In this document: positions 8,260 to 50,050 of the stretch, piece by piece
Layout: every line of letters starts with the position of its first letter
How positions within the stretch are numbered: the stretch's first letter is position 1
Assembly (NCBI RefSeq): GCF_001720485.1
Contig: NZ_CP017114.1
Span: 1,674,001-1,738,000, forward strand
Length of the DNA stretch: 64,000 nt
Source of the DNA: Cobetia marina
Lineage (GTDB): Bacteria > Pseudomonadota > Gammaproteobacteria > Pseudomonadales > Halomonadaceae
Reading direction: 5' to 3'
Notes under the pieces: generated by a model
What the model saw: the letters and a program-made list of their open reading frames with translations, nothing else
The model's database searches: none
What the model was told of the DNA's origin: nothing
Translations under genes and position numbers: made by a program

Positions 8260-8285
8260 GGGCCGGAACAGAAAGAGATGAGACG

Positions 8286-8924: not shown

Positions 8925-8959
8925 ACGGATGATTGAGCGGCGTTATCGATCGCATGACA

Positions 8960-9000
8960 ACGACAAAGGGGGCCTGAACCAGGCCCCCTTTGTCGTTTTT
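8960..9000 (+). terminator. Rho-independent terminator after the CSD-DUF1294 gene
   Basis: Perfect 16-bp stem (8960-8975 and 8981-8996) with loop GAACC, followed by TTTT. It lies between two converging genes and may also stop minus-strand transcripts from the oxygenase gene. Confidence 0.92.
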
Positions 9001-9018
9001 GCTTACTGGCGTGTGCCA

Positions 9019-9960
9019 TCAGAACGGTGCGTAATCATCCTGTTCGGCGCTTGTGGCGACCCAGCGCTCTCTGGCAGGTATCGCCCGACGTTGCGCGCCC
9101 TGTGGCGGTATCTGGCCTCGCTCACCATACAGCCACAGCACCATGTTGGAGCGCTGGCCGCTAGTGATCGGCTGCGCGGCATGCGGCACATTACCGCGAT
9201 GCAGCATGGCCGAGCCGGGCGTGAACGAGAAGCGCACTGCGTCTCCGCTCGCGGCGTCCAGAACATCCAGTTCAGAGCCCTCGAAGGTCTCGTCGGGCAG
9301 GTTCATGTTGATGTTGAGGGTCACGGACGAGGCATCAGTATGCGGCCGAATCGAGGCGTCCGTGGTGGGCTGATAGTGGATCGAGAAGCCGAAGGACTGG
9401 CTGTCGTAGCCGATGATTTCCGGGAACAGCAGCCGCGAGATCGGACGCATGTAGGTATCCAGCAGCTGCTGATAGAACGCCTGGAAACTCGGTGCCGCCA
9501 GATAGCCCTGTGAGCGACGGTCGAGCATGGCGCCGCGCCGATTGAGCACGATGCCGTAGGGCGGGCGCAGCGGAATACCGGCATCCCATGCCTTTTCCAG
9601 CAGGTTGCGCAAATCAGCAATGCGCTCGACATCGAAGAGCTGGAACTGATAGACGTCAGTAGCGACTTCTGTCATCAGCGCCTTGACGTCCGTCTCGCGC
9701 TCGGGATTCTCCCACGCCTGCTTGACGGCAGTGCGCAGCGCCTTGTCGATCAATCCACTGTCGAGGATGGCGAGGTCGTCTTGCTCAACGGCTTCCCATT
9801 CACGCCAGGCGTCACTCAGCAGTTGACGGTGGCTGTCCCAGAATTGCTGGACGGAGGGGGCGCGCCGCAGCATGGCTTCGCGGGAAGGCAGTTCGAGCTC
9901 GCGGGCTTGCTGCAAGCGGGTCTGCTGTAATCGGGTGGGGTGCAATACAGAGTGGGTCAT
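9019..9960 (-). CDS. 2-oxoglutarate/Fe(II)-dependent oxygenase-like protein
   Basis: 313 residues. The C-terminal half carries a facial-triad pattern: HTDASS (His and Asp at about residue 210), a second His in MLHRGNVPHAAQP (about 260-268) and a following Arg in SGQRSNMVLWLYG that could bind 2-oxoglutarate. The N-terminal 120 residues are alpha-helical and specific to this subgroup. The family uses Fe(II), O2 and 2-oxoglutarate for hydroxylation or related oxidation. No neighbour suggests a substrate. It stands alone between two terminators. Confidence 0.72.
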   Translation of the reverse strand: MTHSVLHPTRLQQTRLQQARELELPSREAMLRRAPSVQQFWDSHRQLLSDAWREWEAVEQDDLAILDSGLIDKALRTAVKQAWENPERETDVKALMTEVATDVYQFQLFDVERIADLRNLLEKAWDAGIPLRPPYGIVLNRRGAMLDRRSQGYLAAPSFQAFYQQLLDTYMRPISRLLFPEIIGYDSQSFGFSIHYQPTTDASIRPHTDASSVTLNINMNLPDETFEGSELDVLDAASGDAVRFSFTPGSAMLHRGNVPHAAQPITSGQRSNMVLWLYGERGQIPPQGAQRRAIPARERWVATSAEQDDYAPF

Positions 9961-35997: not shown

Positions 35998-36257
35998 GGG
36001 AACACTCCTTTATTGTTGTGATTGTTGTCTCGCACTACCTGTGTGGAACGTTCTGGACATCAGACATCGACACGTTCTAAGGCTAGAGCGTCGTCCCCGA
36101 TCATTTTCTCCCCAAACGAAGTCCAGTTAGCTGAACGCGTCATGCGGCAAGCGTCAGGCCGGCTTTTCGGATATTTTCTCGCTGGAAGCCTGCATTGCCT
36201 CAGCGCTCAGGAGCCCTCCGAGAGAGGCTGGAAGAGGATGTCCGGGAGCCAGAAACG

Positions 36258-36297
36258 CCAATCCCCGCCGGGCCTTGTGGCCTCAAGCGGGGATTGG
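36258..36297 (-). terminator. Hairpin between the two paralogous BCCT genes
   Basis: 11-bp perfect arms (36258-36268 and 36287-36297) with an inner GGCC-TTGT-GGCC stem, 70 bases past the stop of the upstream BCCT gene. So the two paralogues are probably transcribed separately. Nothing else is seen in 35998-36366. Confidence 0.7.
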
Positions 36298-36366
36298 TGT
36301 CATGCGGGTGCCGGCATCAGGTCACGGCAGGAGCCGTGACCGGCATTGGTCAGACTGACCGGCGGA

Positions 36367-38073
36367 TCAATTCAGGCCCGTGTCGGGGGAGGCGCGGCGA
36401 CGTGCCTTGAGCGCCATGCGCGATTCCTCGATCAGGGCGATCAGAAGACCCAGTGTCATGAGCAGAATGACCAGGCTGACCGGCAATGCCGCCGCCATCA
36501 GCACGGTCTGAAGGGCTTTCAGGCCGCCGGCCATCAGCAGGACGGCAGCGACCGAGCCGATGCAGACGCCCCAGAAGATCCGGTGGCGCGCCAGCGGCTC
36601 CTCATCGCCCATCGACAGGATGGTGGTGATGACCAGGGTGCTGGAGTCGGAGCTGGTCACGAACCAGCTGATCAGCAGGAAGATCAGCAGTGAGGACAGG
36701 ATGACGCTCAGAGTGTCATTGGCCACCAGTGTATCCGCCGTGGCGAACAGCGCCTCCGGCAGGTTCCAGTCGCGGATCATGCCCATCAGTTCGCCGGTTC
36801 CCGGGCCCATGGCTGCGGTCAGTTCCTGGTGCAGCGCGGTGCCACCGAACAGCGCCTGCCAGATGAAGATGATCAGCGGCGGTGCGATCAGCACGCCCAG
36901 CACGAATTCACGCACGGTGCGGCCCTTGGAGATACGGGCGATGAACAGGCCGATGAACGGCGCCCATGCCAGCCACCAGGCCCAGTAGAAGATGGTCCAG
37001 GCATCCTGCCAGTCGCGTTCCAGCGGCGTGCCCGCCACCCACAGACCCATGGGAATGACGTCACGCACATAGGAGACCAGCGTCTCGCCGAACATGCTGA
37101 TCAACCACAGTGTCGGCCCCCCGATCAGGAAGCTGCCCACCACGATGACGGAGACGCCGACGTTGAGTTCGGAGATGATGCGGATACCCCGGCTGACCCC
37201 CGAGACGGCAGACGCGATGGAGATGGCGCAGATCACGGCAATCAGCACCACCTGGGTGTAGATGCCGGAATCCAGCCCGGTCAGACGATTGAGGCCGACG
37301 GCGATCTGGCTGACGCCCAGGCCCAGCGAGGTGGCGATACCGAACACGCAGCCCAGTACCCCCATGATGTCGACGGCGTGGCCGATGGGGCCATAGATGC
37401 GATTGCCGATCAGCGGATACAGCGCGGAGCGCAGGGCCAGCGGCAGGCCGCGGCGATAGGCGAAGTAGGCCAGGGTCATGCCGACGATCACATAGACCGC
37501 CCAGCCATGCAGGCCCCAGTGGAAGAAGGCCAGCTTGAGCGCATCCACGGCGCGCGCATGGGTCATGGCGGTGTGGCCGGCGAGGTCCGCGTGCGGGTTG
37601 TTCGGGTAGCCGAAGCCGCCGGAGTCATCGAAGTAGAACAGCGGCTCGGCGACCCCGAAGAACAGGATGCCGATGCCGACGCCTGCCGAGAGCAGCATCG
37701 AGACCCAGGTGAAGCGAGAGAATTCGGGACGGCTGTCCGGTGCGCCGAGGCGCAGGTTGCCCCAAGGAGAGAACACCAGGGCGATGCACAGCCCGATCAG
37801 TCCGACGATGGTGACGAGATAATAGGTGCCGAAGGTGGACTCGATCCAGGCGCGGGCGGCGCCGAACAGACTCGCGGACATGTCGGGTGCCAGGCCCGTG
37901 GCCAGGACGAAGAGCAGCAGCAGGCCCGCTGAGGTCAGGGTCATGCCCTTGTGCATGCCGGTCAGCCAGCCTGAGGTCTCGACCTGCACGCTGGAACTGG
38001 CGTCGGGATAGGGCAGAGGGGCGGTATTCGTGGAATCGGGAGAGGACGCGGGGTCGGATTGGGAAGGGGTCAC
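36367..38073 (-). CDS. BCCT family transporter, paralogue B (GTG start)
   Basis: 568 residues from the GTG at 38073. I chose GTG because AGGAG lies 7 bases before it and because the protein then begins MTPSQSDPASS, parallel to MTPAQQDSQES of paralogue A. No ATG is available until MHKGMTLTSAG, which would remove the tail shared with paralogue A. Core features are as in A: GVGIGILFFGVAEPLFYFDD and WWLAWAPFIGLFIARISKGR. The gene is divergent from the GlxA-type regulator at 38557, with 483 bases between them that hold no other gene. Confidence 0.93.
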   Translation of the reverse strand: MTPSQSDPASSPDSTNTAPLPYPDASSSVQVETSGWLTGMHKGMTLTSAGLLLLFVLATGLAPDMSASLFGAARAWIESTFGTYYLVTIVGLIGLCIALVFSPWGNLRLGAPDSRPEFSRFTWVSMLLSAGVGIGILFFGVAEPLFYFDDSGGFGYPNNPHADLAGHTAMTHARAVDALKLAFFHWGLHGWAVYVIVGMTLAYFAYRRGLPLALRSALYPLIGNRIYGPIGHAVDIMGVLGCVFGIATSLGLGVSQIAVGLNRLTGLDSGIYTQVVLIAVICAISIASAVSGVSRGIRIISELNVGVSVIVVGSFLIGGPTLWLISMFGETLVSYVRDVIPMGLWVAGTPLERDWQDAWTIFYWAWWLAWAPFIGLFIARISKGRTVREFVLGVLIAPPLIIFIWQALFGGTALHQELTAAMGPGTGELMGMIRDWNLPEALFATADTLVANDTLSVILSSLLIFLLISWFVTSSDSSTLVITTILSMGDEEPLARHRIFWGVCIGSVAAVLLMAGGLKALQTVLMAAALPVSLVILLMTLGLLIALIEESRMALKARRRASPDTGLN

Positions 38074-38469
38074 GCAGTAACTCCTGTTCGAGCTGGTCAA
38101 AGGGCCAGCGATCCCTGTCTCGGTCGAGGCATCGGGGATATCGACCGCTCATCCGGCACCATTATTGTTGTCGTGTTGGCAACGATAAGAGATGAGGAAC
38201 GCATTTTGGAAAGAGCAGTTCTTGGCTAACTGCCTAAAAACATTACGATATATTATGGATGGAATTGTTTTTGATGGCTACAGCTTCTGGAAAAATCACG
38301 CTAGGCCAGAAGCGGGTCGGGCAAGCGGGACGCGAATCACCGCGACATGATCACCAGGCGCTCGCACTGAGGCCCCGGGGATGCCCGGGAGGCGGCATGG
38401 TGAAGTCTCGACGACAGGTAAATTTCAACAGGCTATTTTGTCGTCAGGCGAATTATTGTTAACGTAATG

Positions 38470-38483
38470 CGTCATTTTTGACG
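38470..38483. promoter_or_regulatory. Inverted repeat upstream of the GlxA-type regulator gene
   Basis: CGTCA-TTTT-TGACG, a perfect 5-bp inverted repeat, 73 bases before the regulator start and in the divergent space shared with BCCT paralogue B. A further GTCGTCA lies at about 38442. Possible operator; no independent support. Confidence 0.3.
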
Positions 38484-38556
38484 GTCGTCGTCATGTCACG
38501 CTCTCGGGTGATGACCCATGACACCTCTCTTTCCCTGTCACGGAGGCTCCCGCGTC

Positions 38557-39513
38557 ATGCGTCTCGACTATTCCGGCCCCTTGCCCGAAACGATCGGATT
38601 TCTGCTGCTGCCGCGTTTTTCGATGATGGCCTTCTTCGCGGCGGTGGAGCCGTTGCGCATCGCGAATCGCATCAGCGGCAAGCCGCTGTTTCGCTGGTTG
38701 CTGATCAGTGAGGATGGCCAGCCGGTCACGGCATCGAGTGGCATGACGCTGGTGACGGATCACAGCATTCTGGATATCCGCTCGCTGCCTTCGCTTGCGG
38801 TATGCAGTGGCTTCGAGCCGGAAGCTCACCTGAATCGCGCTCTCACTGGCTGGCTGAATCGCCTCGATGCCGGTGGCTGTGTGCTGGGCGGGCTGGATAC
38901 CGGGTGCTTCCTGCTCGCCGCGGCCGGGCTGCTCAATGGTGAGCGCGTCACGCTGCACTGGGAGAGTCTGCCGGCGTTTCGCGAGCGTTTCCCTGCCATC
39001 AGCACCTCGGATGAATTGTTCGAGCTGGGCGCACGGCGTTTCTCGTGTGCCGGGGGAGCGGCGGCGATGGACATGGCATTGGACGTGATTGCCCGGCGGC
39101 ACGGCACGGCCCTGGCAGTCGATGTCTCCGAGCAGCTTGTCCATGACCGCATGCGGACGCGAACCGATCAGCAGCGCATGACGCTGGCGCGGCGACTCGG
39201 CACTCACAAGCGCCAGCTGGTCGATGCCGTCGCCTTGATGGAGCAGCATCTGGACACCCCCCTGTCGCTGGAGGAGCTGGCCCGACGCTGTCGCATCTCG
39301 CTCAGACAGTTGCAGCGTCTGTTCGAGCAGGAACTCGCCACGTCGCCGCGAGCCTGGTACCTGAGGCTGCGGCTGGAGCGTGCTCGGCATCTGCTCAAGG
39401 AGACGGATCTCGATATTCTCTCCATCGGACTGTCCAGCGGCTTCACGTCGAGCTCAAGCTTCTCGCGGGCCTATCGCAATCACTTCGGGCATTCCCCGCG
39501 AGCCGAGCGCTAG
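38557..39513 (+). CDS. GlxA family AraC-type regulator (DJ-1/PfpI domain), CdhR/GbdR-like
   Basis: 318 residues from the ATG at 38557 (GGAGG before it). N-terminal DJ-1/PfpI-like domain (IGFLLLPRFSMMAFFAAVEPLRIAN, then GLDTGCFLLAAAGLLNG with a Cys at the elbow, about residue 112) and C-terminal AraC DNA-binding domain with two HTH motifs (LSLEELARRCRISLRQLQRLF and ILSIGLSSGFTSSSSFSRAYRNHFG). In Pseudomonas the CdhR, GbdR and related regulators of carnitine and betaine catabolism have this architecture. Its position beside three BCCT genes and 8 kb from cdhCAB makes a role in carnitine/betaine sensing likely (inference). Confidence 0.88.
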   Translation: MRLDYSGPLPETIGFLLLPRFSMMAFFAAVEPLRIANRISGKPLFRWLLISEDGQPVTASSGMTLVTDHSILDIRSLPSLAVCSGFEPEAHLNRALTGWLNRLDAGGCVLGGLDTGCFLLAAAGLLNGERVTLHWESLPAFRERFPAISTSDELFELGARRFSCAGGAAAMDMALDVIARRHGTALAVDVSEQLVHDRMRTRTDQQRMTLARRLGTHKRQLVDAVALMEQHLDTPLSLEELARRCRISLRQLQRLFEQELATSPRAWYLRLRLERARHLLKETDLDILSIGLSSGFTSSSSFSRAYRNHFGHSPRAER

Positions 39514-39526
39514 GGCTTCGGTAGGG

Positions 39527-39562
39527 CAGTTCTCGTGAAAAAGTCAGTTCTCATGAAAAAGG
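39527..39562. repeat. Two 18-bp tandem copies downstream of the regulator gene
   Basis: Unit at 39527-39544 repeated at 39545-39562 with two mismatches (core AGTTCTC-TGAAAAAG). It lies between the regulator gene and the first YHYH gene. Role unknown. Confidence 0.75.
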
Positions 39563-39694
39563 CAGCTTTGTGCAAATGAGCGGCGCGTCTTTCCTTATGG
39601 AACGTGTTTTCCATAGGCTTGGCCTCGCGATGGGTGGGCCGTTCAGGTGAAGTGCAGATGACGTGCTGATGCCCTGGTGATCACAAGAGGAAAC

Positions 39695-40741
39695 ATGATG
39701 AAGCGAATGGCACTGGCCTCGTTGTTCAGCGCGGGGGTCGCCAGCCTGATCCCCGTGTCCGCGATGGCCCACGAGGGGGATGTCTCGGAGCGACTGGCGC
39801 AGATCGCATCCCTGTTCGATGCCCGGAGCATCGTGGCTGGCCCTGAGGTGGTGGATTGCACGCTGTCCGGTGGGACCGAGACCCAGTGCTTCAGCATCAC
39901 GCTGAAGAACTCGCTGGAGTCCAGCGAGATGGGCCCCTGGTGTCCCGGCAAGCTCTCGGACGGTGCCGACAAGGGGGGTATCTGGGTGCGTGACGGCAAG
40001 CAGTACGACGTGGATGGTGCCTTCATCGAGAATCTGGCCACCTTCTATGATGACCCCGAGTGGCAGCTGTTCGACGAGGCCACCGGCAAGGTTCACGTCA
40101 CGGATACCAGGACGGCCTGTGATCAGGCGGCGCGGCCGGATGTGGCCGAGGCGTACCACAACTACTGCGTGGAATGCCGCACGGAATACATGGATGAGGT
40201 CGTCGAGACCACCTATGTGCTGCCACTGGTTCCCGTTGCCCGTCAGGAAGCGGCATCAGGGCGCACTCCGCCAATTCCGCGGGGAATCGCCTTCAATGGC
40301 GTCAGATTCGATGCGGCAGCGCCTCAGGATGCGATTCTTGCCGCCCATACCCTGGCGCCTTTCGATGACTGCGGAGGGCATGTGAATCTGCATGTCGGCT
40401 ATCACTATCACGGTGCCAATGGCTGCAGTCCCGCGAAGGAGAACGTCGCGGCGGATGCACCGATGATCGGCTTTGCCATGGATGGTTATCCGATCCTGGC
40501 CAGACTGACCGGTGACGAGGCCGAGGAGGCAGAACTCGACGCCTGCAGTGGCCATGTCGGTGCAGGCATCGGATACCATTATCATGGCAACAGCGCCGAA
40601 AAGAACGAGATTCTGGGATGTTTCCATGGCGAGATAGGCTGCGCACTCGACTCACCGGATGCTGTCTGCACCGCAGATGACATGGGACATCGCGGGCCAC
40701 CTCCCGGTGAGGAAGATCGTCCGCCGTCCGGGAAGGAGTGA
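39695..40741 (+). CDS. Exported YHYH-domain protein 1
   Basis: 348 residues. A signal peptide (KRMALASLFSAGVASLIPVSAMA, cleavage before HEGD) targets it to the periplasm or outside. AGAGG precedes ATG 39695; ATG 39698 is an equal choice. The YHYH domain shows two copies of a Cys/His motif: CGGHVNLHVGYHYHG (about 226-240) and CSGHVGAGIGYHYHG (about 283-297), with FAMDGYPIL between. CxxC-like ECRTEY and other Cys pairs could form disulfides. The YHYH family has no proven biochemical role; His-rich sites suggest metal binding (inference). First of three paralogues in the cluster. Confidence 0.88.
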   Translation: MMKRMALASLFSAGVASLIPVSAMAHEGDVSERLAQIASLFDARSIVAGPEVVDCTLSGGTETQCFSITLKNSLESSEMGPWCPGKLSDGADKGGIWVRDGKQYDVDGAFIENLATFYDDPEWQLFDEATGKVHVTDTRTACDQAARPDVAEAYHNYCVECRTEYMDEVVETTYVLPLVPVARQEAASGRTPPIPRGIAFNGVRFDAAAPQDAILAAHTLAPFDDCGGHVNLHVGYHYHGANGCSPAKENVAADAPMIGFAMDGYPILARLTGDEAEEAELDACSGHVGAGIGYHYHGNSAEKNEILGCFHGEIGCALDSPDAVCTADDMGHRGPPPGEEDRPPSGKE

Positions 40742-40841
40742 GCCTGCAGGCACCTGAACACCTGTCGTTTTCTGACATATTCGTTGCACATTGCGTCAGC
40801 AAGCTTGTCGTCATTGAGTGATGACACAAGGAAATGCCGAC

Positions 40842-41132
40842 ATGAAAGCCTCTGAAACTCCTTCCGCTCGCGTGACCTTTCGTCGTCGCGGCAGCCTGGC
40901 CTTGATGGCGGGCGCACTGCTGGCCATCAGCGGGATGAGCATGGCGCAGCCTCCGGGTGGCAAGCCGCCGCAGGAAGCCTTCGATGCCTGTGCCAGCAAG
41001 CAGGTGGGAGACCAGTGCCAGATCGCGGTGCCTGAGGCAGACTCGCTGGTGCCGGGACATTGTGTCGCTCCGCCCCGGGGTGGCGAGACGGCCTGCTTGC
41101 CGGATGATGCCAAGCAGGGGCCCAAGCACTGA
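40842..41132 (+). CDS. Small exported Cys-containing protein
   Basis: 96 residues from the ATG at 40842 (AAGGAA before it). Twin-Arg-like start FRRRGSLALMAGALLAISGMSMA is a signal peptide, with cleavage near AQPPG. The mature part of about 60 residues has four Cys: DACASKQVGDQC, GHC and TAC. Short exported proteins of the pattern DAC-x-KxxGDxC-x-V occur widely and are unassigned. It sits between two YHYH genes and is followed by a hairpin. Confidence 0.75.
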   Translation: MKASETPSARVTFRRRGSLALMAGALLAISGMSMAQPPGGKPPQEAFDACASKQVGDQCQIAVPEADSLVPGHCVAPPRGGETACLPDDAKQGPKH

Positions 41133-41197
41133 GGTCAGGGCCTGAGCCGAGCCTGAGTCCAGGCCGAGCTTGACCCTCACGGCTGTCCCGCCCATCG

Positions 41198-41244
41198 ACA
41201 CCCGCCACGCTGATCACTCGAGAGAGCAACAGCGTGGCGGGTGT
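41198..41244 (+). terminator. Hairpin between the small Cys protein gene and YHYH gene 2
   Basis: 14-bp perfect arms (41198-41211 and 41231-41244, 19-base loop) followed by the pyrimidine run TCTCTCTTC. It ends 20 bases before the next start codon, so it could also act on translation of that gene. Confidence 0.65.
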
Positions 41245-41264
41245 TCTCTCTTCGGAGCCTACTC

Positions 41265-42326
41265 ATGAAGACGGCACGCCTTGTGCGAAAGACCGCATCG
41301 ATCACGGCCTGGTTGCCGGCCTCCCTGTTGATGGCAGGGGTGGCCCATGCCGAAGTGGTGCCGGGCCAATTCTCCACGGCCGCGCTGGTCGAGGCGCCGG
41401 AAACCGTCAGCTGTACGCTGGAGAATGGCAGCGCTGCCCAGTGCACCCGACTTGTCGTGAAGTACCAGCCTGATGACCTGGAGATCGGCCCTTTCTGCCC
41501 ACCGACGCTGGATGATCAAGGCGGTATCTGGCAGTGGGATGGCCAGCACCCCGGTCTATATCGGCTGGATCGTGCCTTCTTCGAGATGCTCGATACGCTC
41601 GGATTTCATTTTCATGATGAGGACGAGACGCTTCACATCATGACGGACCTGAGCAAGCGTCAGGAAGAGGCCAACAACTGCCTCAACGTGGCGGAAGATG
41701 ACAGCGTCGAGATGAGCATTCTGCTGCCTGTCGTCCCGGTGCCGGCCGACTCGCCGACGTCGCTTGGCACTGTCGCCAAGGTAGGCCTGGCACTGGATGG
41801 CGTGCCCATCTTCGCCGATGCTCCCTCGGTGCTGGATACCGGCAATCTGCCGGCATTGGATACCTGCGGCGGTCATGTGGACCCGGGTGGCTGGTATCAC
41901 TGGCACGCGACGGCCACGGATATCGATAGCGTCTATGACACGCAAGGCGTGGATGCCCATTGTCAGCAACCGCAGAGCAAGAGCGCCCAGTTCGCCTATG
42001 CCTTCGATGGCTATCCGATGTTCGGCAGTGAAGACCCGACGGGCGAGGTGCCGACCGATCTCGACCGTTGCAATGGTCACTTCGGCCCGACCGAGCGTCA
42101 CCCGGAAGGCGAGTATCACTATCACGCCACTCAGGAATTCCCCAACCTGCCCGCATGTCTGAAGGGTGTGGTGGCGAAGGACAACTTCACTACCAATGCC
42201 AGGATGGGGATCGGCTCTCCACGCAAGCCGGGTCAGGGCCCCATGCCCGGCCATGCAGGCGACGGACATCCGGGCGGGCCAATGCCGGAAAACGATGATG
42301 ACAGCGCCGGGGTCGGGGCGCCGTGA
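41265..42326 (+). CDS. Exported YHYH-domain protein 2
   Basis: 353 residues from the ATG at 41265 (GGAG before it). Signal peptide ASITAWLPASLLMAGVAHA with cleavage before EVVPG. Two Cys/His motifs as in its paralogues but with one change: CGGHVDPGGWYHWHA (YHWH instead of YHYH) and CNGHFGPTERHPEGEYHYHA. YAFDGYPMFGSED lies between them, and a DGVPIFADA segment precedes the first. C-terminal tail rich in Gly, Pro, His, Asp. A 26-bp tandem repeat overlaps the stop codon. Confidence 0.88.
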   Translation: MKTARLVRKTASITAWLPASLLMAGVAHAEVVPGQFSTAALVEAPETVSCTLENGSAAQCTRLVVKYQPDDLEIGPFCPPTLDDQGGIWQWDGQHPGLYRLDRAFFEMLDTLGFHFHDEDETLHIMTDLSKRQEEANNCLNVAEDDSVEMSILLPVVPVPADSPTSLGTVAKVGLALDGVPIFADAPSVLDTGNLPALDTCGGHVDPGGWYHWHATATDIDSVYDTQGVDAHCQQPQSKSAQFAYAFDGYPMFGSEDPTGEVPTDLDRCNGHFGPTERHPEGEYHYHATQEFPNLPACLKGVVAKDNFTTNARMGIGSPRKPGQGPMPGHAGDGHPGGPMPENDDDSAGVGAP

Positions 42327-42378
42327 ACAGCGCCGGGGGCGGGGCGACTTGAACAGCGCCGGCGTCCGGCGCTGCGTG
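42301..42378. repeat. 26-bp tandem repeat spanning the stop codon of YHYH gene 2
   Basis: Copies at 42301-42326 and 42327-42352 and a partial third from 42353; the unit starts ACAGCGCCGGGG. The first copy encodes the last residues and stop of the protein. The third runs into a hairpin AGCGCCGG-CGT-CCGGCGCT (42355-42373) that may end transcription. Confidence 0.8.
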
Positions 42379-42620
42379 CCATGCCATACCCTGCTGTCTG
42401 CACGAATGTCATGGTCTTTTCCAAGACTTTCGCGTCTCGGTGCGTGTTTCACACTGCTGCTGTCTCCCCCCAACCGAGAGATCTCTTCACTGGATTTGCC
42501 TTCATGTCTCTTTCTCGCACCTCTTCATGCATCTCATCTCGCACCACATCTCACACCTCTTCTCGCGTTGCGCCTCTCGCGGCTCACTCCGCTCGGCGTC
42601 GTGACTCGCGGCCTTGCCGC

Positions 42621-43211
42621 ATGCCCCGTCTGACGGCTGTCATTGTCGGCATGTTGACGGTGCTCTTCACCCAGACAGCCAGCGCGCATGTCGATACGGA
42701 TAGCGTCGGCGGCTTTGCCGCGGGCTTCCTGCACCCCCTCACGGGTCTGGATCACTTTACCGCCATGGCAGCCGTGGGGCTGTGGGGGGTGATTCTGGGG
42801 CGTCCTGCTTCCTGGCTGTTGCCGGTGGTATTCCCGATGATCATGGCGCTGGGCAGTGTGGTGGGCATCGTGGGGGTGACATTGCCCGGAATCGAGATCG
42901 GCATTGCCTTGTCGGCTTTGGTGCTCGGCGGCTTCATCGCGGGGCGCGTGCGCCTGCCGCTGTGGATGGCCTGTGCGGTGATCTCCGTCTTTGCCGTCTG
43001 TCATGGCTACGCCCATGGGGCGGAGTTGCCCCTGGCGTCTGATCCCTTTGCCTTTGCGATGGGCTTCATGGTGGCCACCGGCAGTCTGCATGCCGCGGGT
43101 ATCGGCGTTGGCATCATGGCGGAGCGCTTCCGTCAGGGCATGTTGCTGCGCGGATTGGGGATTCTGACGGCACTGCTGGGTGTCTACTTTCTGGTCGAGG
43201 CATTGTCATGA
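42621..43211 (+). CDS. hupE: HupE/UreJ family metal permease
   Basis: 196 residues if the ATG at 42621 is used, which gives a proper signal peptide (LTAVIVGMLTVLFTQTASA) before HVDTD, as in HupE proteins; longer starts back to 42381 exist but code Ser/Arg-rich sequence. Six to seven membrane helices with HPLTGLDHFTAM (HPxxGxDH metal motif), CHGYAHGAE and GSLHAAGIGVGI. HupE/UreJ proteins move nickel or cobalt. There is no hydrogenase or urease gene here; the neighbours are YHYH proteins. Overlaps the next gene by four bases. Confidence 0.85.
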   Translation: MPRLTAVIVGMLTVLFTQTASAHVDTDSVGGFAAGFLHPLTGLDHFTAMAAVGLWGVILGRPASWLLPVVFPMIMALGSVVGIVGVTLPGIEIGIALSALVLGGFIAGRVRLPLWMACAVISVFAVCHGYAHGAELPLASDPFAFAMGFMVATGSLHAAGIGVGIMAERFRQGMLLRGLGILTALLGVYFLVEALS

Positions 43212-43759
43212 TGTGGCCGGAACAGTGGATGATCGGCGTTCGCGCCGTCTGTGCCAGCCCGGTGATCCTGTATCTCATCGTCACGGCGGGTCTTGTCGGA
43301 GTCGCCAGTCAGGACACGCTCACCTGGAAGGCGGGCGGGCGAATTCTGCTGCGGCTCATCAATGGTCTGCTGCTCGGGATCACCCTGTCACTCTTTGCGC
43401 CACAGAGGCTGGTAATGGCCGTGATGGGACTGGCCATGCTGGTGTCGTTGCTCGTCGCGATTCACGTACCGCTGCGCCATGCCTTCGGTCAGGGCATCTT
43501 CCAGCGGGTGCCGGCGCTGCTGGCCGGGCTGGTGGTGGCACTGCTGTTTCTGGGCCACGAGGTGGCCTCGACACCCTTTGCCATCCTTCTCGGTGTCATG
43601 ATGACGGTGATGTGGGGTGTCCTGCTTTGCTGGGCGATATTCGCGTTGATCGGTCGCCTTCTGCCTCGTGCGGCCTTCGTGATCGCGCAGCGAGTGCTGG
43701 GCGCCTGGATGGTCGCGATCGGTGCCATGTCACTGGCCTTCATCGTGATGCAGTGGTAG
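43208..43759 (+). CDS. Integral membrane protein coupled to HupE
   Basis: 183 residues with about five hydrophobic helices and no soluble domain. Not recognised. Its ATG overlaps the hupE stop (ATGA), so the two are made together and may form one transport complex. Sequence such as LINGLLLGITLSLFAPQ and LLFLGHEVASTPFAILLGVMM gives one membrane His-Glu pair that could contact metal (inference). Function unknown. Confidence 0.8.
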   Translation: MMWPEQWMIGVRAVCASPVILYLIVTAGLVGVASQDTLTWKAGGRILLRLINGLLLGITLSLFAPQRLVMAVMGLAMLVSLLVAIHVPLRHAFGQGIFQRVPALLAGLVVALLFLGHEVASTPFAILLGVMMTVMWGVLLCWAIFALIGRLLPRAAFVIAQRVLGAWMVAIGAMSLAFIVMQW

Positions 43760-43894
43760 CTGCCCCGGCATGACGAGAAGAACTCGGAGACCCTGTCGGC
43801 CTTCCTGCGTCCGCATCTGACTGGCTGACACCTCAGGCCACCCGGCCATGCGCGAATGCCTCATGAATTCATCGTCCGACACACAGGAAAGCTC

Positions 43895-45016
43895 ATGTGC
43901 CCACATTCCCTGACGTCTCGGGGACGACCCCGTATCGTGAAGCCCGTCGTGGCACTGACGGTGGCATCCGTTCTCATGGTGCCAGTGTTCTTCCATGTCG
44001 CGCAGTCAGTCGCGAATGATCAACCCTCGCTCGCGAAGGCTCAGTCCGGCTCAGAGAAGTCCACGTCGGAGGCAGCGGCGCAGCGTATGGCCAGGTCCGC
44101 CGCCGAGGCGCATTGCGCCGCCGTGAAGGCTTCCGTGCAAGATGCCGGCTTCGCCGACTCGGTGTCTGTCACCTGCCAGGACGGCAAGGCGCTGATCACC
44201 TCGGATACCTACCCGGATCACGAGATGATGACCGGTATCGTGGGCACCAATGAGCAGGTGCCGGTGCCCGCCAGCGACTACATCTCTCCGATCGCACTTG
44301 AGTCCACGCTGGGGGACACACCGCAGACACGTGATGCGGCGCTGGGGGTGGCGGTCAATGGTGTGCCCATCTATGACTACACCGGCGGCGGAGAGATGTC
44401 TCAGGATGACCTCTCAAGTTATCAGGCCAAGAATGACACCCTGGCCACCAAACAGCTGGATGCCTGTGGCGGGCACGCCGGACGCGGCGATGATTACCAC
44501 TATCATGTCAAACCCGTGTGCATGATCGACAAGATGAAGAATGCCGATGACAACCCCATCATTGGCTGGGCTTTCGATGGTTACCCCATCTATGGCGATG
44601 ACAACCCGGATGGCTCCCCTATCGCGATGGATGTGCTGGATGTCTGCAACGGACAGCCTGATGACACCTTCGGGTATCGCTATCACACCTCCGAACAGGC
44701 GCCCTACATCATTCAGTGTCTGATGGGCGAGGTGCCAGAGGCGAAAGACCTGCCGCGTGTTCCGCCGCTGAAGGCCGCGAGTGGCGATACGCAGGCCGAC
44801 AGTCGTGGGCGGCCTGCCGGCACTCCGCCGCAAGGGGGCGTGGAAGACCTGGTCTTTACCCAGCAGGCAGACGGCAAGCGCAGCATGGATTACACCTATC
44901 ACGGTGAAGCCTATTACATTCGCTATACGCCCACCGATACGCCCAATTGCTATGACTTCGAGACGCGTACCGTGACGGATGGTGGCGACGTCAAGACCGG
45001 GGAGTACTGCCGATGA
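43895..45016 (+). CDS. Exported YHYH-domain protein 3 (signal-anchor type)
   Basis: 373 residues from the ATG at 43895 (AGGAAA before it). An N-terminal hydrophobic stretch (VKPVVALTVASVLMVPVFFHV, about residues 17-37) acts as signal or anchor. After a Ser/Ala-rich linker the YHYH domain has CGGHAGRGDDYHYHVKP and a second, degenerate motif CNGQPDDTFGYRYHTSE, with WAFDGYPIYGDD between them. Before them is NGVPIYDYTGGGE. It is the most divergent of the three. Its stop overlaps the start of the PEBP gene by four bases, linking YHYH and PEBP functions. Confidence 0.87.
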   Translation: MCPHSLTSRGRPRIVKPVVALTVASVLMVPVFFHVAQSVANDQPSLAKAQSGSEKSTSEAAAQRMARSAAEAHCAAVKASVQDAGFADSVSVTCQDGKALITSDTYPDHEMMTGIVGTNEQVPVPASDYISPIALESTLGDTPQTRDAALGVAVNGVPIYDYTGGGEMSQDDLSSYQAKNDTLATKQLDACGGHAGRGDDYHYHVKPVCMIDKMKNADDNPIIGWAFDGYPIYGDDNPDGSPIAMDVLDVCNGQPDDTFGYRYHTSEQAPYIIQCLMGEVPEAKDLPRVPPLKAASGDTQADSRGRPAGTPPQGGVEDLVFTQQADGKRSMDYTYHGEAYYIRYTPTDTPNCYDFETRTVTDGGDVKTGEYCR

Positions 45017-45639
45017 TTCGGGCATGGTCGAGCAAGTTATCGAGCAATCTGGCGGGCAAGTTCTCAAGTGCATGGCAGACGCGTCTAGCACGTGGCTTGG
45101 TCGTCGGGCTTGGTGCGATGGCCCTGGCCACACCGGCGCTGGCACAAGGCGACTTCACGCTCACCAGCCCTGCCTTCAATGATGATGGCTGGTTGCCGGA
45201 TGACCTGAAATGCACTCGTGACGGCGGCGATGGCGTCACGCCGCCGCTGACATGGGGTGATGTGCCTGACGGCACACAGAGCCTCGCCCTCATCATGCAT
45301 CACTATCCCAAAGGCACCGTCGAAGGTCGTGATGCTCCCAGCCAGTATTGGCTGCTGTGGAATCTTCCGGCAGACACCCACGCCTTGCCGCGCGGCAACC
45401 CGGCGTCGCTGGGGGATGAGGGCGCCGACAAGGACAAGAAACGTATCGGGTATACGCCACCTTGTTCACCTCCCGGTCCTGAGGGCTCATATCACGACTA
45501 CACGATCACGCTGTATGCCTTGAAGGCACCGCTGGAGGCGTTGCCGGATCATGACGACATGAGCGTGAACTGGGACACGATGACCGAGGCACTGCAGGGC
45601 AAGGTGCTGGATTCCTCCTCCATCACTTTCCGTAACTGA
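45013..45639 (+). CDS. Exported PEBP family protein (YbhB/YbcL-like)
   Basis: 208 residues. N-terminal signal segment (GLVVGLGAMALATPALA, cleavage before QGDFT) and a PEBP domain: FTLTSPAF, TPPLTWGDVPDGTQSLALIMHH, then YWLLWNLPADTHALPRG and GYTPPCSPPGPEGSYHDYTITLYAL. Bacterial PEBP-like proteins bind phospholipid heads or small anions; the true role is unknown. Start codon overlaps the YHYH gene 3 stop (ATGA). Confidence 0.9.
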   Translation: MIRAWSSKLSSNLAGKFSSAWQTRLARGLVVGLGAMALATPALAQGDFTLTSPAFNDDGWLPDDLKCTRDGGDGVTPPLTWGDVPDGTQSLALIMHHYPKGTVEGRDAPSQYWLLWNLPADTHALPRGNPASLGDEGADKDKKRIGYTPPCSPPGPEGSYHDYTITLYALKAPLEALPDHDDMSVNWDTMTEALQGKVLDSSSITFRN

Positions 45640-45714
45640 GCAGATGATGGACGCAAGACACCCCCCTGCAAGCCAGGAAGCGCGATCGCCATTCACCACG
45701 AAAGGAATTTTTCC

Positions 45715-46413
45715 ATGCGCACATTGCTGACCGCCGCCCTCATTCTGGCTGCCGCACCTGCCTTTGCCGATTCACATGCCAAGGATGAGCATGCAGCAAA
45801 GCCCAAGGCCGGCCCTCAGAGTGGCACCAGACTCAAGGCCGAGGTCTGGGTCGATAACTGGTTCGAGATGTACGTCAATGGCGAGAAGGCGATGCAAGAC
45901 AGCGTGCCGATCACCACGGAGCGTTCCTTCAATTCAGAAACCGCCATCATCGAGACGCAATTCCCGGTGACGATCGCCATCAAGGCCAAGGACTTCAAGG
46001 AAAATGACACAGGCCTTGAGTACATCGGCACGGACCGCCAGCAGATGGGCGATGGCGGCATGATTGCCCAGTTCCGTGATGCCAGAACAGGCGAGGTCAT
46101 CGGGGTCACCAACCGCGACATGCATTGCCTGGTGGTGCAACACGCGCCTGTCGAGGCTTCCTGTGCCGATGAGAGCGACCCACAGGCAGGCGAGGGCGCC
46201 TGTGACTTCGAGGAAACCACGGTGGACGGTGACTGGACGGCCCCGGACTTTGATGACAGCGCCTGGCCGGCTGCCATCGAGCATCAGTACAGCGATGTCA
46301 GCCCGAAGGACGGCTACGACGATATCGACTGGGATGACAGTGCCAGGTTCGTGTGGGGGCAAAGCCTCAAGCAGGACAACACCCTGCTGTGCCGCATGAC
46401 CCTCGACGGCTGA
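45715..46413 (+). CDS. Exported protein of unknown function in the YHYH-PEBP cluster
   Basis: 232 residues. Signal peptide LLTAALILAAAPAFA, then a His/Asp/Lys-rich link (DSHAKDEHAAKPK). The domain (VWVDNWFEMYVNGEKAMQDS..., then DFDDSAWPAA and ARFVWGQSLKQDNTLLCR) has the look of a galactose-binding-like beta sandwich such as those that precede ligand recognition modules. Cys residues at MHCLVV, EASCAD, GACDF and LLCR may pair. GAAAGGA lies before the ATG. I do not recognise a family with known function. Confidence 0.8.
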   Translation: MRTLLTAALILAAAPAFADSHAKDEHAAKPKAGPQSGTRLKAEVWVDNWFEMYVNGEKAMQDSVPITTERSFNSETAIIETQFPVTIAIKAKDFKENDTGLEYIGTDRQQMGDGGMIAQFRDARTGEVIGVTNRDMHCLVVQHAPVEASCADESDPQAGEGACDFEETTVDGDWTAPDFDDSAWPAAIEHQYSDVSPKDGYDDIDWDDSARFVWGQSLKQDNTLLCRMTLDG

Positions 46414-46513
46414 GAAGACACGCGAAAGGCGTGAGCGCCATGACATTGCATTGTGCCCGTTCCTCCCCCATCCCTGAGGGAGGGGCAGGGAGATATCAAG
46501 GAATGGAGCACTT

Positions 46514-47422
46514 ATGCAGTTCATGAAGAATGCCAAGGAACTGGCGCGCAATCCGCTCGGCATCATCGCGCTGTTCATCTCGTTGATCTACGGCTTCGCG
46601 AGCCTGTTGCTGAATTCATCCGCAGACAAGCTGACAGAGGTCGAGCGTTGGCCGCTGATCGCCTTCATCGTCATCTTTCCGCTATTGGTGCTGGGCGTGT
46701 TCTATCGTCTGGTGACCAGGCATCATGGCAAGCTCTATGCCCCCGGCGATTACCACAAGGACCGCTCCTTCATGCGCACCCTGTCGCCCGCCGAACAGGA
46801 GGAGCGCCTGACGGCCGAGGTACAGGACTCACTGGGCGGAGAGCCTGGCATCGAGATGCCGCCAGCCAAGGCGTCGTCTGCCCAGCCACCCGTAGATGAT
46901 GCCGACGTGGCGCAACTGCTCCACGACGACAGTGACGATACGTCGATGGCGTCACCCGCCGGTGGGGCGGTGACATCGCATGAGATGTCGCGGGAGAAGA
47001 TGACGCGAGAGCATCGCCATGAGCTGCGCGCATTGAAGACCGCACTGGTAGGACAGATCGTCCGCGAGTCCGGGGCAGAGCCGTCCGGCGAGGTACGTCA
47101 TGATGTCCAGGTAGGGGATACGCGGGCATGCTTCGATGCGGTGTTTGCCGGCAAGGCCTCCACGACTACCTTCGTGGATGTCAGAGTGCTCAAGCATCAC
47201 GCCAGGGCCGAGCGTATTCTCGACAGCATTCTCTATGAAGCTCTCATCGCACAGCGGGCGCTGGAGGATGATTTTCGTCTGGTGGTCGTGGTCGTGATCT
47301 ACGGCGACGCGGACCTGCGTGAGCGACTACAGTCCCGCTGGCAGCCGCGGGTCTCACACTGCCCGGCGGATGTCGAACTGCGTGTCCTTCGACGCGATGA
47401 CGTGCGCTGTGAGGCAGCGTGA
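46514..47422 (+). CDS. Two-helix membrane protein with degenerate nuclease-like C-terminus
   Basis: 302 residues. Two N-terminal membrane helices (NPLGIIALFISLIYGFASLLL and WPLIAFIVIFPLLVLGVFY), then a polar linker of about 90 residues and a soluble C-terminal domain (about 180-295). The latter reads CFDAVFAG...TTFVDVRVLKHH...ILDSILYEALIAQRAL...LVVVVVIYGD, which resembles the D...(D/E)xK layout of a PD-(D/E)xK fold but with VDVRV in place of ExK, so catalysis is doubtful. GGAG lies before the ATG. End of the plus-strand block. Function unknown. Confidence 0.75.
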   Translation: MQFMKNAKELARNPLGIIALFISLIYGFASLLLNSSADKLTEVERWPLIAFIVIFPLLVLGVFYRLVTRHHGKLYAPGDYHKDRSFMRTLSPAEQEERLTAEVQDSLGGEPGIEMPPAKASSAQPPVDDADVAQLLHDDSDDTSMASPAGGAVTSHEMSREKMTREHRHELRALKTALVGQIVRESGAEPSGEVRHDVQVGDTRACFDAVFAGKASTTTFVDVRVLKHHARAERILDSILYEALIAQRALEDDFRLVVVVVIYGDADLRERLQSRWQPRVSHCPADVELRVLRRDDVRCEAA

Positions 47423-47524
47423 TGTGCTGAGGCGTGATCCACCGTAGCCATGAGAATGTCTCGTCCAGACACGACAGATGGGGGGACACCTCGGGCCGGC
47501 CAGTGCTTGAGGTGGATCACGACG

Positions 47525-47565
47525 AAAAGAGGCCCGTACCGATGCCATCGGTACGGGCCTCTTTT
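47525..47565. terminator. Bidirectional terminator between converging genes
   Basis: Near-complete palindrome: arms 47525-47544 and 47546-47565 beginning with AAAA and ending with TTTT on either strand, the form of a two-way rho-independent terminator between the gene ending at 47422 and the hydrolase gene ending at 47591. Confidence 0.93.
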
Positions 47566-47590
47566 CATGGCACGACCGGCCGGGGCGGTA

Positions 47591-48511
47591 TCATGCCTCG
47601 TCAAGACGGCGCGTCAAGGCGTCACAGAAATCACGCCAGGCGATGCCCATCTCAGGCAATTCATGATGGGCGTGCAGGGCAGCGTGGACCATCCCCGTCG
47701 CGCAGTGATAGCCGACTTCCGCCCCCTGGGCCTTCCAGGTGGCGACGGCCGCCTCCAGCGGCGCCGTGAGAGGGTCATGTTCGACCGAGAGCACTTCGAT
47801 GACCTGCGCCGGTGCCTGCCGTGAATGGGGTGGCGTCATGGCGTAACTGTGCGAGGGGTCACCCTCGGCCACCAGCTGCCACATGGCGACGACTTCTTCA
47901 CGGCTCAGCAGTGGCGCCGTCGGCCCCAGTGTGGCGAGGTCCTCATTGTCGAGGCTCAGTACCGGGTCCATCGGCGGGTAGATGAGGCCCAGCACATAGG
48001 GGGAGTGTGTCTCGTGATGCAGGCGTGAGACATCCATGACCAGGCGACCGCCAGCACTGTCGCCGACGACTGCGACAGGGGTCAGTTCACGCACGGCAAC
48101 CTCACAGTCCATCAGCGCCTGTTGATAGGACGCTTCCGGCAACAGCCGGTAATCCACGCTGATGACCTCACGATTGAGCCGTGACGCCAGGCTTGAGGCC
48201 ACGCCCTGATGGCTATCCAGCGAACCGACCTGCCAGCTGCCACCGTGCAGATAGACGACACAGCCGTCCTTGCGTGGCGCCTCACGCGTCGGGCGGAAAC
48301 GTCGCAGGGCAATGACGTGGCCATCATCGGAATGCAGTGTCTCGTCGCTTGGCGTGACGCCGTCTGCGAGTGGTGCGGCCAGGCGCGCGTAGAGGGCTTC
48401 GCACTGAGGCCGGCTCTCGGCGACTGACAGGCCTGCCAACTCGGCCATGCCGTCGGCGAAGGCGTCGATGAACGCCTGGCAACGCAGCGGTGAAGATGTC
48501 TCGTGTGTCAT
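47591..48511 (-). CDS. hocS: Alpha/beta hydrolase, likely short-chain acylcarnitine hydrolase
   Basis: 306 residues from the ATG at 48511 (ribosome site weak; a start at 48544 is possible). Hormone-sensitive-lipase family: oxyanion motif YLHGGSWQVGSLDSH (HGG), nucleophile elbow VVGDSAGGRLVMD (GDSAG), and Asp/His of the triad in EHDPLTAPLE and GMVHAAL. In Pseudomonas the gene order cdhC-cdhA-cdhB-hocS places HocS, which frees carnitine from short acylcarnitines, at this same position; I assign it by that synteny and by family. 118 bases with a hairpin (48551-48577) separate it from cdhB. Confidence 0.75.
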   Translation of the reverse strand: MTHETSSPLRCQAFIDAFADGMAELAGLSVAESRPQCEALYARLAAPLADGVTPSDETLHSDDGHVIALRRFRPTREAPRKDGCVVYLHGGSWQVGSLDSHQGVASSLASRLNREVISVDYRLLPEASYQQALMDCEVAVRELTPVAVVGDSAGGRLVMDVSRLHHETHSPYVLGLIYPPMDPVLSLDNEDLATLGPTAPLLSREEVVAMWQLVAEGDPSHSYAMTPPHSRQAPAQVIEVLSVEHDPLTAPLEAAVATWKAQGAEVGYHCATGMVHAALHAHHELPEMGIAWRDFCDALTRRLDEA

Positions 48512-48629
48512 GGTCTCTGGCCCGAAAGGAAAAATGTCATGCATACGATAACACCCCGCCAGAAACTGACGGGGTGTCGGTCCATCCTTCGAAAGGACGG
48601 TCTACCTCTTGACGCTGCCGGTGCGCGTA

Positions 48630-49097
48630 TCAGGCCGTCTTGCGACGGATACCGATACGCCGGCCGGCCGCCTTGGGCCAGTCATCGTCGCCTGCCGGCT
48701 GGGGCAGGGCGGCAATGCGCTCCGCCACCGCTTCCGGGCAGGGGGTCGGACGACCGCCACTGATGCTCATCGCCATCAACATCTGCTCGCTGGTGGCAAT
48801 CTCGCCGCCGTCGGCATCGGTCAGAGTGAACAGCACGTGCTGACGCTTGGGGTCGTGATCCAGCAGCAGGACCTTGACCTTGAGTGTCTGGCCTTCGTGC
48901 GCCTCCGCCAGGTAGCACAGGTGCGTCTCCAGGGTGTAGATGGTCAGGTCGTGTTCGCGACGACCGTCGGCATCCAGGCCCACGTGTTCCATCAGCGCCT
49001 CGACTGCCATCGAGAAGGCGCGCGCGTATTCGGCATCATTCATGTGGCCGTTGTAGTCGACCCATTCATGCGGCACCGTGATCTTGAGCAGGTCCAT
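48630..49097 (-). CDS. cdhB: Betainyl-CoA thioesterase (hotdog fold)
   Basis: 155 residues. 4HBT-type hotdog domain with the active-site sequence VDYNGHMNDAEYARAFS (Asp about residue 13) and YLAEAHEGQTLKVKVLLLDHD. In the carnitine pathway it splits betainyl-CoA into glycine betaine and CoA. The ATG overlaps the cdhA stop by one base (TGATG), giving translational coupling. Place in the order cdhC-cdhA-cdhB fits. Confidence 0.87.
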   Translation of the reverse strand: MDLLKITVPHEWVDYNGHMNDAEYARAFSMAVEALMEHVGLDADGRREHDLTIYTLETHLCYLAEAHEGQTLKVKVLLLDHDPKRQHVLFTLTDADGGEIATSEQMLMAMSISGGRPTPCPEAVAERIAALPQPAGDDDWPKAAGRRIGIRRKTA

Positions 49098-50050
49098 CAG
49101 ATACGCCCCTCGAGACCTTCGGCTTCCGGCCAGTACTTGCGCGTCAGCGTCAGCAGCTCGACCAGGAAGTCATCGCGACGACGATCCAGCTCGGCAACCG
49201 GGCGACCCGCTGCCTGGTATTCGCAGCCTTCCACGACCTTGTCGATCAGCTCGTCGGTCAGCTCCGGCGCTTCGAGCTTGGTCCACGGCAGTTTCAGGGC
49301 CGGGCCGAACTGCTCGAGCATGTGACGCATGCCCGGCTCGCCGCCGGCGAGGTGGAAGGTCAGGAAGGTGCCCATCAGCGACCAGCGCAGACCACAGCCA
49401 TAGACGACAGCCGCGTCGATCTCTTCGGTGGTGGCGACGCCATCGTTGACCAGGTGCAGGGCTTCACGCCACAGCGCTTCCATCAGACGATCCGCGATGT
49501 GACCTTCGATCTCGCGACGCACGATCAGCGGACGCATGGCCAGTGCTTGATAGTCTTCGCGTGCGCCTTCCAGCAGCGCCGGGGAGGTGTGCTCGCCACC
49601 CACCAGCTCGACCAGCGGCAGCAGATAGACCGGGTTGAAGGGGTGGGCGACGATGACGCGGCCCGGCGCCTTCTTGCAATCCTGCTGCAGATCGGTCGGC
49701 TTGAAGCCGGAGGTGGAAGAGCCGATCACGACGTGCTCTTCGGCCGCGGCATCGATGGCGCTGAGGATTTCCTGCTTGAGCGGCAGACGCTCCGGCACGT
49801 TTTCCTGGATCAGATCAGCACCGACGACAGCTTCCTCGAGGGTCGCGGCGAAGCGCAGGCGCTCGACGGAAGCGCCTTCCGCCAGGCCATCCTTCTCCAG
49901 TGCGTGCCAGGCGTTCTCTACGAAGGCGCGAGTGCGGGCTTCGGTGTCCGGGGCCGGATCAAAGGCGACCACGTCCCAGCCATTGGCCAGCGCGCGGGAG
50001 ATCCAGCCGTTGCCGATGACACCGGTTCCTACGACAGATAACTGGCTCAT
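49097..50050 (-). CDS. cdhA: L-carnitine 3-dehydrogenase
   Basis: 317 residues. 3-hydroxyacyl-CoA dehydrogenase fold: N-terminal NAD motif GTGVIGNGWISRALANG (about residues 7-23), catalytic His in VIVAHPFNPVYLLPLVE (about 139-155), then the helical C-terminal domain (GCGLRWSLMGTFLTFHLAGG). It oxidises L-carnitine to 3-dehydrocarnitine with NAD+. Start overlaps the cdhC stop (ATGA). Assignment rests on the joint presence with BKACE and thioesterase genes in one coupled operon. Confidence 0.92.
   Translation of the reverse strand: MSQLSVVGTGVIGNGWISRALANGWDVVAFDPAPDTEARTRAFVENAWHALEKDGLAEGASVERLRFAATLEEAVVGADLIQENVPERLPLKQEILSAIDAAAEEHVVIGSSTSGFKPTDLQQDCKKAPGRVIVAHPFNPVYLLPLVELVGGEHTSPALLEGAREDYQALAMRPLIVRREIEGHIADRLMEALWREALHLVNDGVATTEEIDAAVVYGCGLRWSLMGTFLTFHLAGGEPGMRHMLEQFGPALKLPWTKLEAPELTDELIDKVVEGCEYQAAGRPVAELDRRRDDFLVELLTLTRKYWPEAEGLEGRI

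Follow-up and report, generated by a model that had tools for sequence, protein, structure and literature searches.

The window analysed here, a 64,000-nucleotide stretch of Cobetia marina (contig NZ_CP017114.1, positions 1,674,001 to 1,738,000), contains a block of eight open reading frames (ORFs), all on the forward strand, in which three YHYH proteins lie beside a HupE permease, a PEBP protein and three further products. An original prediction made from the sequence alone had described this composition and two ATGA overlaps; coordinates and Pfam matches agree with the gene list, and both overlaps are present in the sequence, at 43208 (hupE/mem43208) and 45013 (yhyh3/pebp). Pfam families were matched for the three YHYH proteins, all above the PF14240 gathering cut-off of 25 bits, and for HupE and PEBP, while smallCys, mem43208 and the product of the 45715 gene (hereafter WAD) had no Pfam family above cut-off. 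Export was predicted from a reading of the sequences together with a home-made signal-peptide rule. In window positions the features are as follows.

yhyh1, 39695..40741, + strand: YHYH protein, predicted exported (PF14240, E 3.5e-15, 56.9 bits)
smallCys, 40824..41132, + strand: small, predicted exported Cys protein of the SCYS family (PPQEAFxAC...C...C), without Pfam match
inverted repeat, 41198..41244, + strand: 15-nt arms and 17-nt loop, then TCTCTCTT, just 5' of yhyh2, found by eye
yhyh2, 41262..42326, + strand: YHYH protein, predicted exported (PF14240, E 9.5e-21, 75.1 bits)
hupE, 42501..43211, + strand: PF04955 (HupE_UreJ) permease (E 6.7e-54, 182.5 bits, cut-off 23)
mem43208, 43208..43759, + strand: membrane-like protein, ATGA-coupled to hupE, without Pfam match
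yhyh3, 43856..45016, + strand: YHYH protein of module B type (PF14240, E 1.8e-21, 77.4 bits)
pebp, 45013..45639, + strand: predicted exported PEBP protein (PF01161, E 4.3e-20, 72.9 bits, cut-off 24), ATGA-coupled to yhyh3
WAD, 45715..46413, + strand: exported-looking protein of the W-x-DNWFxxYxNG family, a predicted sugar-binding jelly roll

Comparison within the genus divides the block into two separable modules, A (yhyh1-smallCys-yhyh2-hupE-mem43208) and B (yhyh3-pebp-WAD). All six Cobetia genomes carry a YHYH gene and four carry the cluster (G000, G006 on two contigs, G030 and G057); in G030, module A is complete and in order, and yhyh3, pebp and the 45715 gene are missing. The remaining two, G045 and G068, have neither module and one distant YHYH gene each, and in both the araC and 46514 genes that flank the block lie close together. 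A 55-bp stretch between these two genes (L254 5037-5091; L255 4979-5033) matches the end of mem43208 (window 43703-43757) at 80 to 82%, and because of this scar we consider it most likely that G045 and G068 descend from a G030-like state and had module A deleted. Module A is a unit of Cobetia; its yhyh and smallCys parts are also met in other genomes.

Module B extends well beyond the genus. A scan of genome contigs with the YHYH3 alignment confirmed 511 relatives, and the locus counts given here refer to the best 80 of these 511 (counts of yhyh1 and yhyh2 among them used identity and distance filters). WAD was the commonest adjacent partner, adjoining YHYH3 in 68 of the 80 loci at a distance of no more than 704 bp; PEBP did so in 20, no further than 126 bp away, both without exception on the strand of YHYH3, and ten loci had neither. 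The gene orders were WAD-YHYH3 (40 loci), YHYH3-PEBP-WAD (10), YHYH3-WAD (10), WAD-YHYH3-PEBP (8) and YHYH3-PEBP (2). Record titles place the hosts mostly in Rhodobacteraceae and Granulosicoccaceae, which we take to be largely marine. Association of YHYH3 with both PEBP and the 45715 protein is above chance. Three records named Oceanobacillus, Acaryochloris and Synechococcus (L163, L091, P0186) also contain a module B-type YHYH3, about 64 to 72% identical, and are perhaps contaminated assemblies.

The same partners are also found joined in single proteins. One-chain PEBP-YHYH-WAD proteins occur in L201 and L290-L293, and WAD-PEBP-YHYH in L062; PEBP is fused to YHYH in L030, L031, L294, L295 and L296, the last with a smallCys-like N-terminus, and a smallCys-YHYH fusion is found in L294. 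Other fusions join WAD and YHYH to a CotH kinase (L058) or a sulfatase to YHYH (L075 by Pfam, L297-L303 by a two-sequence profile). The PEBP, YHYH, CotH and L075 sulfatase parts were verified by the Pfam scans made, which covered L030, L058, L062, L075, L201 and L296, and WAD, smallCys and all sulfatase parts except that of L075 rest on profiles built for this analysis. About 150 YHYH places were listed and 40 regions taken, chosen by frame length, such that fusion and neighbour counts describe a non-random sample. Because both domain orders are hard to explain otherwise, these fusions point to a joint function of PEBP, YHYH and WAD. Module B is a conserved unit of marine bacteria, either encoded side by side or fused into a single chain, and with PEBP recurring beside and within YHYH proteins outside the strain, an undescribed extracytoplasmic system, as first proposed, is likely; we found no description of YHYH together with PEBP or WAD in the open-licence literature. 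Among side observations, the sulfatases of L075 and L297-L303 are fused to a canonical YHYH domain, and other frames of ~726-768 aa may be alike. Two loci (L304, L305) encode exported-looking proteins of ~1360 aa with two YHYH domains and a start that we take to be FG-GAP-like, each beside another YHYH protein of ~870-890 aa. A YHS-domain-like protein (L070 7988-8437; 26.5 bits, Pfam cut-off 30.3) lies two ORFs upstream of a YHYH gene.

WAD had entered the original prediction as one more exported unknown, which overlooked that it is the most constant YHYH3 partner and, judging by its structural model, looks like a sugar-binding domain. It is predicted to be a rhamnosidase-type sugar-binding jelly roll: the model has the fold of the CBM67 of SaRha78A (3w5n), a GH78 alpha-L-rhamnosidase, and also resembles a Pleurotus ostreatus lectin, although WAD lacks the glycosidase domain of SaRha78A. 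The WAD profile, when compared with solved chains, matched 3w5m best (E 0.054), a marginal sequence similarity in which FDDSxWPAA aligns with FDDSGWPAA of 3w5m and the DN of W-x-DNWF aligns with ADN, the latter within a stretch scoring -1.7 bits. Among named records, the best relative of WAD belongs to Cobetia sp. L2A1. The pebp product resembles the PEBP/YbhB family (PF01161) in profile match and overall sequence, but it is exported-looking and has MHHYP and Tyr in place of the YDPDAP and pocket His of YbhB; DPDAP is absent from the module B PEBPs aligned. We take DPDAP and the pocket His of YbhB to be residues of its anion-site pocket.

The YHYH proteins themselves are distant paralogues, with yhyh1 and yhyh2 sharing 24% and 23% identity with yhyh3, respectively. 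Two CxGH...YHYH motif pairs had been attributed to each of them, which is correct for yhyh1 (two CxGH, two YHYH-type motifs) and incorrect for the others: yhyh2 has two CxGH together with YHWH and YHYH, plus an unrelated FHFH, and yhyh3 has one CxGH and one YHYH with a degenerate second copy (CNGQ...YRYH). Six candidate ligands, D202, H207, H215, H217, D241 and D262 in yhyh3 numbering, are invariant in 50 aligned YHYH proteins, which include the three of the window and 31 close YHYH3 relatives from a protein search. A search with yhyh3 recovered 1399 homologues at E 1e-3, and its AlphaFold2 model has a pLDDT of 82.8; the N-terminus of the window protein is atypical and possibly uncleaved. PF14240 is present in 9 of 101 genomes of the window's own family, 20 of 369 in the class sample and 18 of 299 in the phylum sample (own genome counted), in 60 of 147 genomes of the family of G734, and in 0 of 14 control genomes in each search. 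The labels Alteromonad-type and Granulosicoccaceae are inferred for these genomes, the former being a guess from sequence.

In the open-licence literature we found no tested function for the YHYH family, the passages on the domain being predictions or abundance data. One of these passages, in PMC7824862, predicts a tail-associated Zn-dependent hydrolase with three His and an Asp, and describes phage fusions to lectin-like domains. The window proteins share with it the PF14240 match above cut-off and conserved His and Asp, and the invariant set appears in line with the Zn site predicted there, for which the passage does not specify the residues. Unlike the phage tail protein, the window proteins are cellular, predicted to be exported, and tied to PEBP, WAD and proteins with a mature N-terminal His. 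Module B could accordingly be read as a secreted metal-dependent hydrolase in which YHYH is catalytic (Zn), WAD targets the enzyme and PEBP serves as an accessory ligand or inhibitor, with the metal a cofactor and hupE unrelated, a reading that we hold to be doubtful. It fits the prediction and lectin-like fusions of PMC7824862, the fusions of YHYH to sulfatase (L075, L297-L303) and CotH kinase (L058), the resemblance of WAD to the sugar-binding part of a rhamnosidase, and the absence of HupE from module B loci outside Cobetia. It leaves unexplained the predicted N-terminal His of YHYH3 relatives and the N-His, DUF6702-like and SCYS proteins that neighbour YHYH genes, and comparison of the YHYH model with solved structures matched no hydrolase fold, a weak argument given that the matches were filled by the C-terminal part.

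The N-terminal His is a recurrent feature of YHYH3 relatives. AxA followed by His stands at the end of the signal peptide in 140 of 179 distinct relatives with the anchor Cys, a set from which 15 YHYH3-type sequences without this Cys and repeats of one stretch were dropped, and it goes together with a His just before the anchor Cys (121/140 vs 19/39; Fisher p 2.7e-6, not kinship-corrected). A crude rule found AxA|H close to the signal-peptide site in 59/88 YHYH3 homologues and 47/68 YHYH proteins of the 80 loci, compared to 15/381 and 9/216 other ORFs, respectively; the values for WAD and PEBP were 6/103 and 0/18, and that for HupE (1/21) is uninformative, the sequences having been cut at or near the His. 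In the window, the signal-peptide-like start of yhyh1 ends in AMA|H, and its mature N-terminus is therefore probably His. At Alteromonad-type loci the feature lies in the small same-strand neighbours of YHYH, where 17 of 25 with signal-like starts have AxA|H, compared to 2 of 51 other ORFs. These small neighbours are smallCys proteins, found in 11 of 20 loci of one Alteromonad-type set, and DUF6702-like proteins; SCYS-type genes adjoin YHYH in unrelated genomes.

A mature N-terminal His after the signal peptide is also the likeness that links these proteins to the N-His metal proteins of PMC12537917, namely the DUF6702 sequesterase and the HupE/UreJ-2 anglerases; there, one DUF6702 protein was shown to have picomolar affinity for Ni and nanomolar affinity for Co and Cu. 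DUF6702-like and HupE_UreJ_2 genes of this type adjoin YHYH in other genomes, a His start seems likely for the window HupE and YHYH1 too, and the main text of PMC12537917 has zero mentions of YHYH or PEBP. The window HupE differs from an anglerase, in which a separate extracytoplasmic N-His domain precedes a PF13795 permease: it lacks a separate binding domain, matches PF04955 only and has its His just before the membrane part. The metal link of the original prediction is thus supported indirectly, because of the predicted N-terminal His of YHYH3 relatives, the conserved YHYH His residues, and the N-His, DUF6702-like and HupE_UreJ_2 neighbours.

Its further claim, that metal is delivered by HupE, lacks support as a general rule. 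With a profile run over every ORF, no PF04955 HupE was found near YHYH outside Cobetia in the 80 loci, 40 Alteromonad-type loci and 55 sampled loci: the counts were 1/80 (L085, Cobetia crustatorum, which is also the only one of the 80 with hupE plus mem43208) and 0/40, and matches in the 55 sampled loci were the Cobetia ones and a HupE_UreJ_2 protein in L076. An association of YHYH with PF04955 above chance is thus absent outside Cobetia, and the part played by HupE is specific to this genus. In the window HupE, cleavage of a signal peptide is likely at ASA|HVDTD, and the Ala-His pair is invariant in 8/8 aligned HupE; an alternative longer start at 42381 is possible. Its coupled partner mem43208 is known from Cobetia and a few other contigs, with 4 proteins in a database search of 5.8 billion; in the phylum sample it is present solely in its own genome (1 of 299).

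These results raise the question of whether the exported proteins here form only a loose collection, with hupE-mem43208 importing nickel for the cytoplasm independently of the YHYH genes. The restriction of PF04955 HupE near YHYH to Cobetia, the rarity of mem43208, and the 60 of 80 YHYH3 loci without PEBP speak for such a collection. On the other hand, G030 still has hupE-mem43208 after yhyh1-smallCys-yhyh2 with module B missing, and G045 and G068 lost the pair together with the yhyh genes, leaving the mem43208 scar; PF04955 is lacking altogether from G045, in a sample that did not include G068. Of 61 genomes sampled in the family, 25 have PF04955, and HupE copies away from the cluster are mostly linked to urease, with ureF/ureG-like motifs, which we take to mark this linkage, in 21 of 30 PF04955 loci, a second Cobetia HupE among them. 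The cluster HupE, a separate copy, showed no such neighbours, and inspection by eye of the ORFs in 36000-50000 revealed no hydrogenase or urease gene, though no family search for these was made. HupE_UreJ_2 lies 3' of YHYH in L076 and L078, both loci of family f53, and the adjacency and fusions of WAD and PEBP do not fit a loose collection, which we consider unlikely.

Regulatory neighbours were found at other loci. In one set, all seven loci with PEBP-YHYH fusions (L290-L296) carry relatives of the L291 kinase and regulator, as do 5 of 20 loci of another set (L312, L313, L314, L319, L329). The best NCBIfam match of the kinases of L291, L295 and L313 and the regulators of L291, L313 and L319 was BaeS or BaeR, below equivalog cut-offs, and this likeness to the BaeS/BaeR envelope-stress two-component system, seen beside Alteromonad-type YHYH loci and absent from the Cobetia block, fits an envelope or metal-stress response.

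The surroundings of the block in Cobetia appear unrelated to it. Its flanking genes, an AraC regulator matched best in NCBIfam by GbdR (below cut-off) together with transporter and dehydrogenase ORFs, keep their place; from their sequence features we take them to be genes of carnitine catabolism, and they are not part of the system. A membrane-like protein with no family assigned (window 46514-47422) is probably outside it as well, because it is retained in the cluster-less Cobetia genomes. Downstream of the 46514 gene and before the gene that follows it is a perfect inverted repeat with 21-bp arms separated by a single nucleotide (window 47524-47566), perhaps a two-way terminator, and a direct repeat with a 26-bp unit and ~2.6 copies (42301-42369) spans the end of yhyh2. 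The 41198..41244 repeat is terminator- or attenuator-like in sequence; with its loop of 17 it was not flagged by the inverted-repeat scan, which had a loop limit of 8. G057 has three additional genes between araC and yhyh1 (L024 13791-15970), of which two were scanned, one being DUF6152 and one a weak DUF6644 match, and another between yhyh2 and hupE (L024 9654-10361) with a DUF1554 match below cut-off. A lone YHYH gene with a lipobox-like start (LLLFGC) lies off the cluster at G000:C1:930855-931145 (locus L028, about 8136-9338); with similar genes in G030, G045, G057 and G068 it is present in 5 of 6 genus genomes, and none was found in the draft G006.

Taken together, we favour reading the block as an exported, glycan-targeted metalloprotein system in two modules, with a probability of roughly 0.45. 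WAD would tether a complex to glycans (the cell's own capsule, biofilm or algal polysaccharide) via its CBM67-like face, the YHYH domain would hold a transition-metal site of three conserved His and an Asp, to which the mature N-terminal His of many family members may add a further ligand, and PEBP would provide a remodelled ligand pocket. We infer that such a complex would bind Ni, Co, Cu or Zn, either in the periplasm or on the surface of the cell, where the metal may be stored, handed on, or used on the bound glycan, and that in Cobetia the metal would probably enter the cell through HupE, with its likely mature N-terminal His. Fusions to sulfatase and CotH lean towards a catalytic or cofactor role of the metal, the N-His partners towards capture.

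Several observations weigh against this two-module metalloprotein system. Linkage of PF04955 HupE to YHYH is confined to Cobetia, 12 of the 80 YHYH3 loci lack WAD and 60 lack PEBP, and the Foldseek E-values of WAD are weak (best 0.019). The N-terminal His, assessed with a home-made signal-peptide rule, is absent from yhyh2 and yhyh3 of the window and was found by the crude rule in only 10/47 mixed YHYH proteins from the sampled loci and in 1 of 31 YHYH ORFs with signal-like starts at Alteromonad-type loci. DUF6702-like neighbours have AxA|H in 2 of 5, and of nine tested against the DUF6702 profile (cut-off 24) only that of L322 passed (28.4 bits), with L310, L320, L325 and L201 below cut-off and L290, L306, L327 and L030 without match. 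No metal riboswitch was found in 38000-48000.

More broadly, and more tentatively, the module B partners may form a widespread secreted machine in which WAD, a remodelled PEBP and the YHYH metal domain capture transition metals at glycan-rich surfaces, and, with a BaeSR-like envelope sensor in control, N-His partners (DUF6702-like proteins, smallCys, HupE or HupE_UreJ_2) pass the metal on to the cell; we regard this extension as speculative and rather improbable as a whole. The neighbours and fusions described here name partners for YHYH, a widespread Pfam family. If the proposed system is real, it would give this family its first function, and would connect metal handling in the marine environment with surface glycans, by way of proteins found in Rhodobacteraceae, Granulosicoccaceae and Alteromonad-type bacteria.

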